Position numbers and translations under genes: made by a program
Shown: positions 9,401 to 59,871 of the stretch, piece after piece
Layout: each line of letters begins with the position of its first letter
Numbering within the stretch: the stretch's first letter is position 1
IMG/VR virus record: IMGVR_UViG_3300020370_000002
Location: 18,806-82,805 of that record
Length of the DNA stretch: 64,000 nt
Reading direction: 5' to 3' (one strand)
Source: a virus
Notes under the pieces: model-generated
Seen by the model: only the letters and a program-made list of their open reading frames with translations
Told to the model about the DNA's origin: nothing
Databases searched by the model: none

Positions 9401-9730
9401 ATGTCATCATCGCCAGTAGCAGCAAGTATATCATCAATAACATTAAATGCAAGCACGAGTAATATTACAGAGTTTGTGTCTACCTCTAACCAGACTACCT
9501 ACTCAATTACTTATACTCCAAATGCAATACTTGTGTTTTTAAACGGAATACTACTAGATAATGGAGTGGATTATACAGCAACAAACGGTACTTCGATAGT
9601 TTTAACAAACGGAGCAGCAGCAGATGACGTTCTCACAGTAGATAAAGGAAACTATACTTTTACTGCTACATCAGTGGGGGCTCCCGCATCAGTAGACGAT
9701 GCCACAGCTCTGGCAATCGCATTGGGATAA
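9401..9730 (+). CDS. Small tail fibre / adhesin protein
   Basis: A protein of 109 residues. The segment YTPNAILVFLNGILLDNGVDYTATNG is a beta-hairpin unit that I recognise as common in marine phage fibres. It is Ser/Thr-rich, with no cysteine or catalytic motif. It begins 3 bases after the upstream chaperone-like gene. The exact structural role is unknown. Confidence 0.55.
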   Translation: MSSSPVAASISSITLNASTSNITEFVSTSNQTTYSITYTPNAILVFLNGILLDNGVDYTATNGTSIVLTNGAAADDVLTVDKGNYTFTATSVGAPASVDDATALAIALG

Positions 9731-47067: not shown

Positions 47068-47670
47068 TTATTTTTTCGCAACTCTAATTATTGTCTTGAG
47101 GGCTGACTTGATTCCCTTCTTTTTGTTGTTGTAATCAAGAACGTGCCATTCACTATCTACTACTCGTTCCTTGAGAAGCGTCATGCTATCGTAGTACGAC
47201 AGTGCATTTTCGTCATTCTCTGAGAACTTCCAGTAGGTGAGAGGAGAGTTTTTTCTGTTGTCTATTCTAGCTCTCTGCTCTTCCTCTGTGATGGACAGCC
47301 ATAGCTTGATAATCTTCACGTCTTGGAAGGATTCCCACATCTTGTAGCCTTGCAAAAACTCTCTGTACTGATCTTCTGTGCACCAGTTGTTGAGTCTCTG
47401 AACCATAGCTCGTGAGTACCAAGACCTGTCATAGAATACGATCTGACCTTTTGCTGGCATCTTTGTTTGCCAATGACCTAGCCAGTTCTCCATAGTTTGT
47501 TTACTTGGCTTTGTTGAAGGGACAACAGAGTACCATGCAGGGGATAAGTATTGGGTCAAAGCTCTAATCGTACTTGACTTTCCAGCCGTGTCTCTGCCTT
47601 CTAATACTACTGCAATGCCTTTGTTGTTGTTTGCTGCGATCTGATTTAGTTTTGCTAATAATTTTTTCAT
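47068..47670 (-). CDS. Polyphosphate kinase 2-like enzyme
   Basis: A protein of 200 residues. Walker A EGRDTAGKSS lies at 24-33. VPSTKPSKQTMENWLGHW fits the PPK2 segment KP-x-x-E-x-x-x-x-Y-x-x-RW. Walker B FYDRSWYSRAMV lies at 79-90, with the family DRSWY box. PPK2 enzymes make nucleoside di- or triphosphates from polyphosphate. It is shorter than usual PPK2 (about 230-300). The ATG is 6 bp after the -10 box with no ribosome binding site, so the mRNA should be leaderless. Confidence 0.8.
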   Translation of the reverse strand: MKKLLAKLNQIAANNNKGIAVVLEGRDTAGKSSTIRALTQYLSPAWYSVVPSTKPSKQTMENWLGHWQTKMPAKGQIVFYDRSWYSRAMVQRLNNWCTEDQYREFLQGYKMWESFQDVKIIKLWLSITEEEQRARIDNRKNSPLTYWKFSENDENALSYYDSMTLLKERVVDSEWHVLDYNNKKKGIKSALKTIIRVAKK

Positions 47671-50672: not shown

Positions 50673-50695
50673 AGATTTCCTTAATTTATGGATAT

Positions 50696-50724
50696 ATTAT
50701 ACCAGCAATTACATCCATTGTCAA
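50696..50724 (-). promoter_or_regulatory. sigma70-type promoter
   Basis: TTGACA (50724-50719), 17 bp, TATAAT (50701-50696). It lacks the A-rich upstream element, because it borders the GC-rich gene desert. The leader of about 17 bases contains AAGGAAA for the metallopeptidase gene. Confidence 0.75.
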
Positions 50725-50766
50725 ATGATTTTGCCCCTATTCGTGAAAAAAACATCAGCGAATTCC

Positions 50767-50790
50767 GGGGGGCCGCGCGCGGGGTCGGAA
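50767..50790. other. GC-rich palindromic element
   Basis: A run of G and C contains the 10-bp palindrome CCGCGCGCGG (50773-50782) flanked by G tracts. It sits at the left border of the gene desert. A protein site or melting barrier is possible; nothing more can be said. Confidence 0.4.
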
Positions 50791-50803
50791 AGTCAAGTGT
50801 TTT

Positions 50804-50863
50804 TTGTGTAATTTGTGCAAATTTTGTGTAATTTTTGTCCCCGTTGCGGAGACTTGTGTAATT
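50804..50863. repeat. Three iteron-like repeats TTGTGTAATT
   Basis: Identical 10-bp copies start at 50804, 50824 and 50854, spaced 20 and 30 bp, that is whole helical turns. Such phasing is typical of sites bound cooperatively on one DNA face, for example by an initiator or repressor. They lie beside tandem promoters and a parS-like site. Confidence 0.6.
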
Positions 50864-50896
50864 ATAAAAAATTTGGTGCATTCGTGCAAAAAAGAC

Positions 50897-50925
50897 TTGA
50901 CATGCGCACCCGTTGCGCGTATACT
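50897..50925 (+). promoter_or_regulatory. Promoter in repeat module 1
   Basis: TTGACA (50897-50902), 17 bp, TATACT (50920-50925). The spacer holds an inverted repeat GCGCA-CCCGT-TGCGC, a possible operator between the hexamers. Confidence 0.6.
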
Positions 50926-51021
50926 GGCGCCGGGCGGGTACTTAAAATCGTCGTCGTACTACTACTGGCGCAGGAGACTTGCTTAATTTGCATTAATTTG
51001 CACCATACCCGCAAAAAAGAC

Positions 51022-51050
51022 TTGACTTTTGTACTCATCGGCCGCATACT
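51022..51050 (+). promoter_or_regulatory. Promoter in repeat module 2
   Basis: TTGACT (51022-51027), 17 bp, CATACT (51045-51050). It is weaker than copy 1 and its spacer lacks the same inverted repeat. Confidence 0.5.
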
Positions 51051-51141
51051 GGCGCAAGCAACACCTTATACAGTCGTCGTCGTACTACTACTGGCGCCCC
51101 CGCGCCAAAAATCTCAATAAATCAAGATTTTTTTCGCGGAA

Positions 51142-51157
51142 TGTTTCACGTGAAACC
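51142..51157. other. parS-like ParB-binding site
   Basis: The sequence is TGTTTCACGTGAAACC, with the 14-bp perfect palindrome GTTTCACGTGAAAC. It matches 15 of 16 bases of the chromosomal parS consensus TGTTTCACGTGAAACA as I know it. The stop codon of a small gene lies inside it. No ParA or ParB gene was seen in the window. Confidence 0.7.
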
Positions 51158-51271
51158 ATTGTGAAGCGCAAGGGCTATGCAATAGCCAACGCTGGAGAAT
51201 ATCGCGGCAAGTGCCAGAGTGAGCAATCCCCAATATATAGAAATTGCGAGAGCAGAGATAAGATTTTTCAT
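51146..51271 (-). CDS. Small membrane protein of 41 residues
   Basis: It starts MKNLISALAISIYWGLLTLA and has two hydrophobic stretches, the second around AAIFSSVGYCIALAL. The ATG overlaps the upstream stop as ATGA. Its own TGA is within the parS-like site. It is the last gene of a GC-richer operon. Function unknown. Confidence 0.55.
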   Translation of the reverse strand: MKNLISALAISIYWGLLTLALAAIFSSVGYCIALALHNGFT

Positions 51272-51375
51272 AGTGTATTATTCCAAAGGTAATAAATTGC
51301 AGTTGCCCATATAGCAACGTCAGTAATAATCGAATAAATGAAATATCCGAGAGCCATAATTTTTGCTAGTTTCAT
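51268..51375 (-). CDS. Small membrane protein of 35 residues, paralogue of the 53112 gene
   Basis: The sequence MKLAKIMALGYFIYSIITDV, then AIWATAIYYLWNNTL, matches the 36-residue protein at 53112 (LAK, Y-x-IYSI-x-D, IxYxx). GGAGG lies 7 bases before the ATG, which overlaps the exonuclease stop as ATGA. The conserved pair and the strong ribosome binding site support translation. Confidence 0.6.
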   Translation of the reverse strand: MKLAKIMALGYFIYSIITDVAIWATAIYYLWNNTL

Positions 51376-52034
51376 TGTCCCGCCTCCAAAACGGTTTTTC
51401 GTGTAGTATTTTTTAGTAGTGAGGCAAGAATCATTGCCTCGTAATCTCGCGCATCTTCGAGCGCGGTGTGGGGTTCGTCCGCTAGTGCGTTGTACGCATC
51501 ACGCGCGACATATTTTGCCATAGTGTCGGCAGTCATAGAAACGCGAGTTCGTTTTGCAGTCCAGAGGTTGCGCTCTTCGCACCATGCGACATATTCGGCA
51601 GTCGTGCCAATCATATTTTTTGCCGCTTTCATTAGGCAAAATTTCTGCGAAAATACGCCAAGGTCGATTCCAGTATTTCGGCATTTGCCAAAATCGAAAG
51701 CGATATTGTAGGCAGTCAAAACAGGCTTGTATTGTCCTAAGATTCGAGCGAGCCAAATATTGACCAGTGTAGGCGAGCAAATAGAGCGTTGCCCATTGTC
51801 TAGCAAATCCTCGTAATGCTTGAGCCTACGCGCTCGCGTTTGCTTAGAAAAGAAAGCGTCAGCGGGTGCGCCTTTGACAGCGAATAAAGGCAGTTTGCCG
51901 AAATGCCCATTTAGCAGAACCGCGAATTGCTCAATAATTGCGCCTTTGCGATCCATGATAACCGCGCCAAAATCTGCGACCGTTTGTTGTTGGGTTGTCT
52001 CGGTATCGACAATCAAGTAATAGTGTTTATTCAT
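51372..52034 (-). CDS. DnaQ-like 3'-5' exonuclease (DEDD)
   Basis: A protein of 220 residues. LIVDTETTQQQ gives D and E of motif I, LTAYNIAFDFGKC gives motif II, and PHTALEDARDYE gives the H and D of motif III (DEDDh type). It is a separate exonuclease, since the family A polymerase carries its own. It may degrade RNA or host DNA, or proofread. GAGGAA precedes the chosen ATG. Base composition is GC-richer than in the replication block. Confidence 0.85.
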   Translation of the reverse strand: MNKHYYLIVDTETTQQQTVADFGAVIMDRKGAIIEQFAVLLNGHFGKLPLFAVKGAPADAFFSKQTRARRLKHYEDLLDNGQRSICSPTLVNIWLARILGQYKPVLTAYNIAFDFGKCRNTGIDLGVFSQKFCLMKAAKNMIGTTAEYVAWCEERNLWTAKRTRVSMTADTMAKYVARDAYNALADEPHTALEDARDYEAMILASLLKNTTRKTVLEAGQ

Positions 52035-52035
52035 T

Positions 52036-52506
52036 TTATGCGTTCCTCGCGTTGTATGAAATAGGATTATAAACCCGAATACCCATAGATTGCAAGGCAT
52101 TTCGGACGTTTTCGGAATCATCAAACATAAAAGCATTATAGCGCATCCATGCCAGAGAAACCCCAAGATCACGCGCACATTGGCGAATCATGGATTGTTT
52201 GAGAATACCATCGGCAATAGTCGAGCCAATAGGCCGCGAGTATATAAACCGATAGCGTAGATTAGACCGCACCAGAAACGCAAGGTCTGCGTCACCAATA
52301 ACGCGAGCCGTCATAATGACAACATCATGCCGCGATTGGTCAATGGTTCGCCATGAATCCGCGAGAGGCAGAAGCGAATCTCTCGCGATTTTTTCGGGCG
52401 TGTTGTTGTCGATCCATGCCGACAGGTTGAGCGTACCATCTGCCAGAGTATTCTGCCTATGGCTTGAGTCGATGGTAGTCCCATCTAGATCAAAAATAAA
52501 GAGCAT
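52036..52506 (-). CDS. HAD-superfamily phosphatase
   Basis: A protein of 156 residues. Motif I is FIFDLDGTTID (nucleophile D near residue 6), motif II is VIMTARV, and motif III/IV is AFMFDDSENV. The size matches small phage HAD enzymes related to the 3'-phosphatase half of polynucleotide kinase. No kinase domain is present. The substrate could be a nucleotide or a DNA/RNA end. Confidence 0.82.
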   Translation of the reverse strand: MLFIFDLDGTTIDSSHRQNTLADGTLNLSAWIDNNTPEKIARDSLLPLADSWRTIDQSRHDVVIMTARVIGDADLAFLVRSNLRYRFIYSRPIGSTIADGILKQSMIRQCARDLGVSLAWMRYNAFMFDDSENVRNALQSMGIRVYNPISYNARNA

Positions 52507-52711
52507 AAAAATATCCTATAATGCCGAGTGAATTTAATATGATTAAGTTGTAGAGCTTACCAGAGGTTGCTTGTATAGTCAACAGCGCAAGCCCAACAAT
52601 CGCAAGAAATTTTCCTGCATTATAATCAATGATAAAGGGAGCCAAGCCCATGCAGATCGTACCGATCCACGCGAGCCATTCAACCAAAGCCTGACGGCTT
52701 TGAGCATCCAT
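52490..52711 (-). CDS. Membrane protein of 73 residues
   Basis: It has two or three hydrophobic segments (WLAWIGTICMGLAPFII, FLAIVGLALLTIQA, NLIILNSLGIIGYFYAL). The ATG overlaps the HTH stop as TAATG. It overlaps the HAD gene by 17 bases. A transporter- or holin-like role cannot be decided. Confidence 0.65.
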   Translation of the reverse strand: MDAQSRQALVEWLAWIGTICMGLAPFIIDYNAGKFLAIVGLALLTIQATSGKLYNLIILNSLGIIGYFYALYF

Positions 52712-53001
52712 TATTGGATGCTCATTAGAAGGGCTGAGAGAGAGCGCATTGATGCGCCTTCTAGACCTTCAAGGCTTTCACCTTGCAAAGCCTTTTCGAT
52801 GGCTTGCACCATCTCGGCTTTGGTTGAGCGTGAGGCTTTCGCCTTTGGCTCTGCTTTTTTGTAAAGCCCAAGCATAACGGCTTTTGAAATGACAGAACGG
52901 ACGGGAAGCCCGAATTCTGCCGCGAGATCATCAGCGACAGAGCGCGTGATGGGTGAGCGATCGTCCATAATGGCGATCATTTTAGTAGTGTAGTTTGACA
53001 T
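52711..53001 (-). CDS. GcrA-like HTH protein, paralogue at the head of the GC-richer operon
   Basis: A protein of 96 residues. HTH unit VADDLAAEFGLPVRSVISKA, VMLGLYKK; second domain TKAEMVQAIEKALQ, MRSLSALLMSI. The chosen ATG has AAGGAGG 6 bases upstream; longer readings would cross the promoter. It is the first gene of the operon and is probably its regulator. Confidence 0.72.
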   Translation of the reverse strand: MSNYTTKMIAIMDDRSPITRSVADDLAAEFGLPVRSVISKAVMLGLYKKAEPKAKASRSTKAEMVQAIEKALQGESLEGLEGASMRSLSALLMSIQ

Positions 53002-53043
53002 ATGAGCCTCCTTAGGCGTGTCGGTTAATTTTAATATGCAAGC

Positions 53044-53072
53044 ATTATCGCACATTTTTGCGAAAAAGTCAA
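53044..53072 (-). promoter_or_regulatory. sigma70-type promoter of the GC-richer operon
   Basis: TTGACT (53072-53067), 17 bp, GATAAT (53049-53044), preceded by AAAATAATGC. The leader of about 36 bases carries AAGGAGG. Confidence 0.78.
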
Positions 53073-53111
53073 GCATTATTTTATATTTCTTTTGCATATA
53101 TTTCTTGCCCC

Positions 53112-53295: not shown

Positions 53296-53314
53296 AATGA
53301 GAATGATTCTCATT
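53296..53314. promoter_or_regulatory. Fur-box-like palindrome
   Basis: AATGAGAATGATTCTCATT is a perfect 8-3-8 palindrome. It contains TGAGAATGATTCTCA, a close variant of the 7-1-7 Fur site TGATAATxATTATCA. It lies in a 190-bp divergent intergenic region. Which promoter it controls, if any, is unclear. Confidence 0.6.
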
Positions 53315-53413: not shown

Positions 53414-53442
53414 TTGACATTGTATGTCATTTTTAGTATAAT
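53414..53442 (+). promoter_or_regulatory. sigma70-type promoter of the second fibre locus
   Basis: TTGACA (53414-53419), 17 bp, TATAAT (53437-53442), 6 bases, ATG, with AAAAAAATTTC upstream. The fibre mRNA should be leaderless. Confidence 0.85.
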
Positions 53443-53448
53443 TTTTTC

Positions 53449-54963
53449 ATGAGTACTTATAGATACGATTTTACCATAGCTAATGCTCCTCCTGGTCAGT
53501 CTGGGCAATATCCTCTAGCAACACAGAGCACTGTTTTCATGCCAGAGACTAGTATATTTTTTCAGCATGGTGATACGATTCAGGCAAAGCATACACACCC
53601 AACAGGTTTAAACATAAACTATACTGGCCCTGATGTACATGGGGCAAATCCAGATCCTACAGTTAAGACTTCCTTAGCTTCAGGAGAGACAAGAACTTTA
53701 ACATGGAGTGGGACCTTTCAAGATGAGGCTACTCCGCCTAATACTGTAGATTTTAACGATGACTATTTTACACAATGGTTTTTCTTTGCAAATGATGGCA
53801 CAGATAATATATACTCTCAAAAAATAGTTTATAGAAGGGTAAAAATTACATCCTTTACGACTTCTGCAACAACAGTTGAGCCTGGGGAGTCAATAACTTT
53901 TGGTGTCGGAGGCCTCACAGGATTCCCTGATGCTAGTGGTGCTAATGGAAATCGTTTATATATTAGTATATTTCCAGCAGGAGCCGCTTCTTTAGTAGGA
54001 ACTAATTATATAAGCTGGAATAATTCTAATAATCAACTTGGAAGGGTTACCACGTCAGATACTTTTCCGGTATTACAAACCTCAGGCACAGCAGGTAATC
54101 TACCTGATGGAACTTATAATGCTTATATAACTCATTATGGAGGAGAAACAGCCCTAAACGGTAGTTTAACTGTAGGTAACAGATTTTTTGGATCAGAAAG
54201 AAGACTTAGAAACAACAGTGGGGTTATTTTTACAAAGTCATTTACAGTAGCTACCCCCACTAATACAACTCCCACTAATTTTAGCTTAGGAGCAGATATA
54301 GAGAACTCTGCACTAAATGCAACATGGAATCTAGGACAAGTTACAGTAGCAGGTATGGATGCAGGAGTTAGTACTAGTATTTCTGTTTCTGGACAAGGAG
54401 CGCCCCGATTTTCTATAAATGGAGGATCGTACAATAATGCAACAGTAACAAATTTAACAGTCTCTAATGGAGATACAGTTGATATGCAGATGGATGCTTC
54501 TGGAGAGTTTAATACCCCGCATACAGCAACTTTAAATATTGGAGGTGTAGAAGACTCTATGGTTGTTACAACTATAATAGATCCTGGAACAGGAGGAGGA
54601 GGTTCAGGAAGCGGTACTGGAACCGGAGACTTTGGTTTAATAGTTAAAAATGCTGCCACTCCTCCTGCTATTATATTTGGACCAGGTATAAGATCAAGTC
54701 ATCTACTAGGTAGCAATACATTCGTAATAGCAGCTAACTCATCAATTGATGTAGGCCCCTTCGAAGGTTTTACAGGCACAAATATATCGACTTGCGGATT
54801 TTTTCTTGTGGCTGTTAACGCCAACAATGTTTTTATAGGCTATCAAATAGTAGTAACTAGGGGGCTGGGCAACACAATTAACGGTATAGATGTAGGAAAG
54901 GTGCGTATTAGTAACTCTTCAAGCCACCAAGTTGAAGGTCGCTACTACGCGGTGAGATATTAA
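53449..54963 (+). CDS. Tail fibre / adhesin of the second fibre locus
   Basis: A protein of 504 residues made of several beta-sandwich-like sections (VKITSFTTSATTVEPGESIT, FTVATPTNTTPTNFSLGADI, VTVAGMDAGVSTSISVSGQG). A GGGGSGSGTGTG hinge near residue 380 leads to a C-terminal tip domain. The ATG is at the predicted transcription start, without ribosome binding site. It lies far from the main fibre cluster and has its own promoter, so it may be expressed differently or be an accessory adhesin. Confidence 0.65.
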   Translation: MSTYRYDFTIANAPPGQSGQYPLATQSTVFMPETSIFFQHGDTIQAKHTHPTGLNINYTGPDVHGANPDPTVKTSLASGETRTLTWSGTFQDEATPPNTVDFNDDYFTQWFFFANDGTDNIYSQKIVYRRVKITSFTTSATTVEPGESITFGVGGLTGFPDASGANGNRLYISIFPAGAASLVGTNYISWNNSNNQLGRVTTSDTFPVLQTSGTAGNLPDGTYNAYITHYGGETALNGSLTVGNRFFGSERRLRNNSGVIFTKSFTVATPTNTTPTNFSLGADIENSALNATWNLGQVTVAGMDAGVSTSISVSGQGAPRFSINGGSYNNATVTNLTVSNGDTVDMQMDASGEFNTPHTATLNIGGVEDSMVVTTIIDPGTGGGGSGSGTGTGDFGLIVKNAATPPAIIFGPGIRSSHLLGSNTFVIAANSSIDVGPFEGFTGTNISTCGFFLVAVNANNVFIGYQIVVTRGLGNTINGIDVGKVRISNSSSHQVEGRYYAVRY

Positions 54964-56146: not shown

Positions 56147-56175
56147 TTGACATTTAATCCCCTTTTGAGTATAAT
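56147..56175 (+). promoter_or_regulatory. sigma70-type promoter of the packaging operon
   Basis: TTGACA (56147-56152), 17 bp, TATAAT (56170-56175), 6 bases, ATG, with AAAAATAATTC upstream. The terminase small subunit mRNA should be leaderless. Confidence 0.88.
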
Positions 56176-56181
56176 TTCCCC

Positions 56182-56643
56182 ATGGCTAAAGAAGTAACAA
56201 CAATTTCTCCGGAAGGACTTGAAGTAGCAAACTCGTATCTCACTCTTGGGAATATTCGGGGTGTTTGCGAGCAGCTGCAAGTTGACGAAAAGAAGGTTGT
56301 TGATATATTAAATAAACGAGAAGTAAAGAAGTACATTGATACTGTTTACCTCGACACGGGGTATAGAAACAAAAATAACATTGGCTCTTTACTAGATGAG
56401 ATGATACAATCAAAGCTCGATGAAGCACAGGAAAGCGGTGTGTACTCCAGCAAAGACTTAGCTGACTTACTACAAATGGCTCACAAAATGCGAATGGATG
56501 AAATCAAAGCTCAAGCAGACCTTGAGAAAGCATCCGCTTCCAACATCAAGAATCAGACGAATGTTCAGATAAATGATGGTGTACCGTTCGGTCAGGGTAA
56601 CTACGGCAAGCTAATGGATAAACTACTCAATGGAACAGCCTGA
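56182..56643 (+). CDS. Terminase small subunit (putative)
   Basis: A protein of 153 residues. The N-terminal HTH (LTLGNIRGVCEQLQVDEKKV, VDILNKREVKKYID) binds DNA in TerS proteins. A helical middle (LADLLQMAHKMRMDEIKAQA) would oligomerise into a ring, and the C-terminus would meet the large subunit. It lies 3.5 kb before the large subunit, further than usual. The ATG is at the predicted transcription start. Confidence 0.72.
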   Translation: MAKEVTTISPEGLEVANSYLTLGNIRGVCEQLQVDEKKVVDILNKREVKKYIDTVYLDTGYRNKNNIGSLLDEMIQSKLDEAQESGVYSSKDLADLLQMAHKMRMDEIKAQADLEKASASNIKNQTNVQINDGVPFGQGNYGKLMDKLLNGTA

Positions 56644-59280: not shown

Positions 59281-59871
59281 ATGGATATACTTTTAGAACT
59301 TGCAACAACTTTTTGGCAATGGAGCGTAGTAATCGTTCTAATTTTAATTGGTTTTATAATCAGTTGGTTTGACGGCCAAGGAGAAGAACGTGTAGGTTTT
59401 AAAATGCCCTTTGGTATGCCCGTATTACAACCTATACCAATAGAAACAAAAGACAAAGGGTTTTGGAAAGGGATTCTTCTGTGGCTTCTTGGTAAAAGAC
59501 AGTGGGAGGTCGCAGAAGACTTCTGGTTTAAACTAGACGGAGAAACCTACATGATTCCCGCAGGATTTCAGTTTGACGGGGCTTCTGTACCAAAGTTTCT
59601 TGCTACCTTTCTTTCGCCTGTAGGAGTTTTACTTATGGGTGGTTTAGTACATGATTATGGGTACAAGTACGCAACTTTAATGAGAGATGACGGTACTAAT
59701 ATTGGTTATAGAGACCAAGCGTACATGGACAGACTTTTTCGAGATATATGCATCGAAGTAAACGGGTTTAAATTTTTAAACTATCTTGCCTACTGGTCAC
59801 TTCGCCTTGTTGGCTTTGTGGCTTGGAACGGGCACAAAAAGAGAGGTACGCATACTGAGGAGAGCGCATGA
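59281..59871 (+). CDS. DUF1353-type phage protein
   Basis: A protein of 196 residues. An N-terminal span (WSVVIVLILIGFIISWF) is followed by the DUF1353 core: AGFQFDGASVPKFLATFLSP, GGLVHDYGYKY and YRDQAYMDRLFRDIC. Conserved His and Asp in VHDYGY suggest metal or catalysis. The family is common in tailed phages and has no proven role. GGGAGAGG precedes the ATG. Confidence 0.78.
   Translation: MDILLELATTFWQWSVVIVLILIGFIISWFDGQGEERVGFKMPFGMPVLQPIPIETKDKGFWKGILLWLLGKRQWEVAEDFWFKLDGETYMIPAGFQFDGASVPKFLATFLSPVGVLLMGGLVHDYGYKYATLMRDDGTNIGYRDQAYMDRLFRDICIEVNGFKFLNYLAYWSLRLVGFVAWNGHKKRGTHTEESA

Follow-up and report, generated by a model that had tools for sequence, protein, structure and literature searches.

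A conserved non-coding promoter array with a predicted parS site in marine relatives of bacteriophage T5

The array and its genomic setting

The window analysed here is a stretch of 64,000 nucleotides (G000:C1:18806-82805) from a virus record 82,805 bases long. The best matches of its terminase (TerL) and DNA polymerase are in the Demerecviridae, the relatives of T5 (44–50% identity); judged by its sequence, the source phage is a bacterial virus from a marine lineage that is sister to T5. The replication genes are oriented leftward, starting at about 50 kb, and the structural genes rightward, starting at about 53 kb. Repeated strong promoters and one parS-like site occupy some 400 bases that are free of genes (Table 1). 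A polyphosphate kinase 2 family gene (PPK2; 47068-47670) lies amid the early genes, and a glutamine riboswitch (RF01739; 59136-59190) precedes a tail assembly chaperone gene (59281-59871), which is an odd partner for a glnA-type aptamer.

Table 1. Features of the array and its flanks in the window
Feature	Position	Strand	Remarks
Leftward early promoter	50696..50724	-	12/12 consensus bases; ATAT-type discriminator; precedes first left gene
Left box	50761..50797	-	AATTCCGGGGGGCC 50761-50774; GTCAAG 50792-50797
Three TTGTGTAATT repeats	50804..50863	+	At 50804, 50824 and 50854, in AT-rich stretch
Promoter P1	50897..50930	+	TTGACA-N17-TATACT (TTGACA 50897-50902, TATACT 50920-50925); 11/12 consensus bases
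P1 discriminator	50926-50930	+	GGCGC
Inverted repeat in P1 spacer	50904-50918		GCGCA-cccgt-TGCGC
Box 1	50960..50971	+	TACTACTGGCGC; second GGCGC of module 1
Promoter P2	51022..51055	+	TTGACT-N17-CATACT (TTGACT 51022-51027, CATACT 51045-51050); 9/12 consensus bases; aligns with relatives in alignment A1
P2 discriminator	51051-51055	+	GGCGC
Box 2	51086..51106	+	TACTACTGGCGC with palindrome GGCGC-CCCC-GCGCC (51093-51106)
Weak AT-rich hairpin and T run	51110..51134		Possible terminator between converging units; score 7.5, too low to tell arrays from shuffles
parS-like site	51142..51157		TGTTTCACGTGAAACC; palindrome with one mismatch
DnaQ-like exonuclease gene	51372..52034	-	Converges on array; phrog_192 (DNA polymerase exonuclease subunit), E 1.4e-5
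T5 dmp homologue (deoxynucleoside monophosphatase)	52036..52506	-	phrog_415, E 2.5e-15
A2/D5-family DNA-binding protein gene	52711..53097	-	phrog_1725, E 1.6e-5; AhSzw-1 A2 protein in same family

All sequence features named in the initial annotation of this region are present in the window. They include two direct-repeat modules of 83 nt (72% identical, starting at 50848 and 50973 and thus 125 bp apart), each with a promoter of 17-bp spacing, and four copies of the block TACTGGCGC, two of which overlap −10 elements and two of which lie inside TACTACTGGCGC (50960 and 51086). The parS-like site does follow the region at once, and it is the sole match in the window at up to three mismatches. The absence of a convincing gene likewise stands, as the longest forward open reading frame (50815-51120, 101 codons, GTG start) is mechanical only. 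On the minus strand, the left box can be read as a −35 element (CTTGAC) with an A-tract and without a −10 element, and matches the module profile R1 (E 0.0033). The PHROG label of the dmp family is polynucleotide kinase; the VspSw_1 protein annotated as a monophosphatase belongs to the same family.

Mechanical mapping of 73 arrays shows that, in most of them, the promoters and the flanking genes on both sides occupy opposite strands, so that the right-hand genes converge on the array; rightward genes start about 2–3 kb beyond it. Strong rightward promoters with rightward late genes 2–3 kb further on would also suit a late-gene leader of the lambda PR' type, in which RNA polymerase pauses and a phage antiterminator permits read-through into the late genes. 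This reading is highly improbable, because the late block has near-perfect promoters of its own (53414, 56147) and because transcription would have to pass in antisense through 2 kb of convergent genes. In the perfect late promoters at 53414-53451 and 56147-56184, an ATG stands six bases past the −10 element, which suggests that the late mRNAs are leaderless.

Tandem sigma70 promoters of the rRNA type are strong, with upstream A-tracts and a G+C-rich discriminator. The promoters of the array are likewise tandem and strong, with A-tracts upstream and a G+C-rich discriminator, but they have neither rRNA nor any other gene behind them and are accompanied by a fixed second GGCGC and a palindrome. 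Within G000, ATAT-like discriminators mark the leftward early promoters, a class that is present also in four other records, the rightward late promoters have TCTATC or TTTTTC, and GGCGC is restricted to the array. For T5, one study names the discriminator as the main difference among promoter classes, with ATATT in the early class, and has gpT5.026 act on the discriminator contact (PMC7472727). Together with this precedent, the discriminator classes of G000 support, by analogy, the view that the GGCGC promoters may be a class switched separately from the early (ATAT-type) and late classes.

Conservation and variation of the array

Going by sequence comparison, the region is not private to the source phage; dozens of related marine viruses share its layout. 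The array is present in more than 80 distinct IMG/VR contigs. A 22-mer of the region matched 19 IMG/VR stretches; a box pattern gave 85 matches (including chance coding matches, such as those in L046, L066, L074, L087, L092, L093, and L098) and a promoter-only pattern 86, with search patterns that themselves contained hairpin and −35 letters. Phage and plasmid collections yielded zero matches to the region (megablast, blastn), and the L130 array found just two weak short matches among phages (blastn). Genome contigs gave 0 matches to the 22-mer and 7 to the promoter pattern, of which, by eye, L150 alone is a true array. T5 and VspSw_1 have no array, and the module profile finds nothing in either; its matches in AhSzw-1 (E 0.002) and My1 (E 0.007) are weak and partial.

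Toward parS, the arrays run from a left G box with an inverted −35 element through an AT-rich stretch to the promoters, the second GGCGC, the palindrome, and a predicted host-protein site. The left box reads GGGGG[GC]C in many arrays. The rightward promoters, a private class of tandem, predicted sigma70 promoters that all carry the GGCGC discriminator, number one, two, or three in 11, 56, and 14, respectively, of the 81 arrays with enough upstream sequence. About 42 bp past the last discriminator follows the second GGCGC, usually within the palindrome GGCGCnnnnGCGCC that ends the array, and then one predicted site of ParB consensus (of Fur consensus in some relatives). In 59 of 68 modules, the two GGCGC copies are 41–43 bp apart, or nearly four helical turns; these 68 remained after removal of redundancy from 75 of the 88 arrays, 12 having been excluded for want of a second GGCGC 58–90 bp past the −35 element and one for lying too near the end of its locus. 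Conservation among relatives gives good support to the initial proposal of a control region that has twin promoters and precedes parS.

Some relatives contain an extra unit without a −10 element, and at locus L063, the spacer of a promoter repeats the terminal box, interrupted by the letters of the −10 element. The arrays of L042, L063, L071, and L013 have an extra promoter with an ACCAGG discriminator, whose −10 element is flanked in L013 and L063 by an operator-like inverted repeat, CCTGG...CCAGG. In L011, tandem units similar to GCGAGCGATTCGCATTT follow directly past the terminal box (about 120-190). The inverted repeat between −35 and −10 in module 1, initially considered a typical repressor position, exists in the window, but arms of at least 5 bp occur in the spacers of only 11 of 67 upstream promoters (4% in shuffles), and a conserved repressor site was rejected because the repeat is a minority trait.

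Several strong promoters with no gene behind them, a constant distance from start to hairpin, and conservation of the presumed RNA sequence would fit a small-RNA locus, whose strong tandem promoters produce an abundant RNA of 60–200 nt acting in trans. Such a function is unlikely. The sole consensus helix is invariant, with compensatory change in 0 of 6 pairs of alignment A1; this alignment leaves out 12 further rows, hand-picked as divergent, so that its invariant columns are flattering and, with typical members enriched, the missing covariation weighs little either way. The same motif family occurs also in promoter spacers (e.g., in L063), and the region from start to hairpin is of at least two types. 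Moreover, strong intrinsic terminators (score of at least 12) follow only 18% of 77 arrays (1% of shuffles), and the region has no Rfam match at gathering scores. A structured RNA was rejected because its helix shows no covariation, as was an attenuator leader peptide (frame IVVVLLLA), for which an in-frame start codon is present past the presumed transcript start in just 5 of 38 TAC-type modules, one of them ATG.

Repeats, GC skew, and the origin question

A replication origin, the other function considered in the initial annotation, would use the tandem promoters for a primer or activating RNA beside the AT-rich stretch and parS for positioning the copies. The array does lie at the divergence point of the gene map, and its left part is AT-rich. 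It resembles RNA- or iteron-based origins of phages and plasmids (e.g., those of mycobacterial prophages) in being non-coding, with promoters and parS nearby, but differs in that its repeats are not conserved as iterons. Although the three TTGTGTAATT repeats of the window array are spaced by 20 and 30 bp as claimed, these distances are only roughly whole turns (1.9 and 2.9 at 10.5 bp per turn). The whole window contains six copies (0.31 expected by chance). The notion of phased iterons fails among the relatives: TTGTGTAATT occurs three times in the window array and once in one relative but is absent from the 86 others of the 88 distinct arrays, and the promoter spacings show no phasing (R = 0.16). 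The repeats are missing even from the array of a near relative with a neighboring protein of 92% identity. An iteron origin would require conserved and helically phased repeats, which the arrays lack.

The cumulative GC skew, proposed initially as a check, was followed in five records. Three of them (G001, G012, and G004) have their minimum 1.3–2.4 kb from the array and G011 about 6 kb away, and the curve of the window turns at 50–52 kb. In G000, however, the global minimum is the contig start, with just a local turn near the array, and the minima coincide with the switch in gene direction, which could by itself, through the change of coding strand, account for them. A comparison of minus-strand genes on the two sides of the array at fourfold sites gave mixed signs, with a weak difference in GC skew (p = 0.046) and one of opposite sense in TA skew. 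In addition, the RNA would probably be C-rich rather than G-rich, which is poor for R-loops. An origin at this locus is rather unlikely.

Host-protein sites and the comparison with T5

Sites beyond the array were predicted with the 16-bp palindrome TGTTNCACGTGNAACA, which we take to be the parS consensus of chromosomal ParABS systems (at most two mismatches), and with an assumed Fur-type consensus (at most three mismatches). They were counted in 83 of the 88 distinct arrays, excluding five with less than 250 bp downstream. A parS site is predicted past 58 of the 83 arrays, a Fur-type box past 23, and either of them past 66, as opposed to 6 (parS) and 36 (Fur-type) of 1738 background tiles (400 bp each) from other parts of these loci. 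Neither is within reach in 17 arrays, and a DnaA box follows just one of the 83. At no more than one mismatch, 10 of 13 array records have parS at one place only, which in all ten lies within 100 bp of the array; the entire records of VspSw_1, T5, My1, and AhSzw-1 have none. The array region of the window (50673-51372) contains 0 DnaA, Fur, or LexA sites; a perfect Fur-type box, AATGAGAATGATTCTCATT (53296-53314), stands alone in the gap where the pre-early-like block gives way to the late genes.

The site in the array fits the consensus of chromosomal parS (with one mismatch in the window), but it is a single site adjoining promoters, and ParB_N (PF02195) was detected in 0 of 11 array records, compared with 10 of 14 control genomes. 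Since no ParB is encoded in the 11 tested records, the ligand would have to be the ParB of the host. The part of the literature that was searched holds no report of an orphan parS in T5-type phages. A single parS per genome, fixed in position, and the lack of a phage ParB would agree with an orphan partition or anchoring site, whose main function is the capture of host ParB and whose promoters just shield the site or limit ParB spreading. This is quite unlikely, because 25 of 83 arrays have no parS within reach, some of them with Fur boxes instead, and because the array is more constant than the parS site.

The genes next to the array recall dmp and A2, two pre-early genes of T5. In 13 records, a non-random, author-selected sample of mostly larger ones, the dmp family (phrog_415) was always found 0.1–1.9 kb from the array and convergent on it (13/13), and a short gene of the A2/D5 family (phrog_1725) always within 2 kb on either side (13/13). 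Gene A1 of T5 encodes a DNA transfer protein required for the second step of T5 entry. Its family (phrog_1745) was found in 0 of the 13 array records, which may be incomplete, but in all four T5-like controls; a search for A1 in G000 was likewise negative. In T5, dmp is located at the genome end, about 9 kb from the injection-stop region (iss), so that synteny with the array is inexact.

The annotated iss of T5 (L147 3412-3716, corresponding to 9411-9715 of the T5 record) contains seven Fur-type matches and one DnaA box, against an expectation of 0.05 for each type, as well as one near-perfect LexA-type match, a type that 20 simulated sequences lacked altogether. Comparable mixtures of Fur-, LexA-, and DnaA-type sites, far above chance, are present in non-coding stretches of AhSzw-1, VspSw_1, and My1. 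No report of Fur or LexA boxes in the iss was found in the portion of the literature covered. A 2026 paper describes repeats, palindromes, and DnaA boxes in the T5 region and calls the second-step mechanism poorly understood; how DNA entry halts after 8–9% is, according to the same text, still open (PMC13250531). The array shares with the iss and the border of first-step transfer its occurrence in T5-related phages, as non-coding DNA near dmp and A2-family genes, and the combination of repeats, palindromes, and predicted host-protein sites. It differs in the order relative to dmp and in its GGCGC-discriminator promoters and parS; with A1 missing from the array records and DnaA boxes from the window, it is not a proven member of the iss class. 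Contig ends near the array are enriched yet scattered, which does not support a packaging terminus, and no direct terminal repeat was demonstrated.

Kinship, position, and site content suggest, tentatively and short of even confidence, that this conserved non-coding array, which borders on a pre-early-like block, is a control locus for the start of infection, where host proteins would dock and which would work like the injection-stop region of T5. On entry, host RNA polymerase and host ParB (or Fur) would occupy the locus, perhaps together with phage A2/D5-type proteins encoded within 2 kb of it. Short transcripts would be directed at the 3' ends of the pre-early-like genes, ending before or at the docking site, and the loaded region would form the border between pre-early and early DNA, be it as transcription insulator, entry brake, or genome anchor. 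The injection-stop region of T5 is thought to act as such a border.

A wider and more doubtful possibility is that the boundary of the pre-early block in T5-related virulent phages serves as a docking hub for nucleoid and regulator proteins of the host, via an orphan parS in the source phage, Fur boxes in its relatives, and boxes for Fur, LexA, and DnaA in the iss of T5; the GGCGC promoters might then load host RNA polymerase beside the hub to hold, position, or meter the incoming genome. If so, virulent phages would carry a chromosome-segregation site without its protein. As a compact and highly conserved RNA polymerase and ParB/Fur module in a sister lineage of T5, the array is a short, testable candidate for an entry stop, and it points attention to the Fur and LexA sites in the iss. 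Among the T5-like phages compared, VspSw_1 has the sequence GCTCTTTAACAATTT, which resembles the boxA of rRNA leaders, ahead of its A2-family gene (L108 15892-15906).
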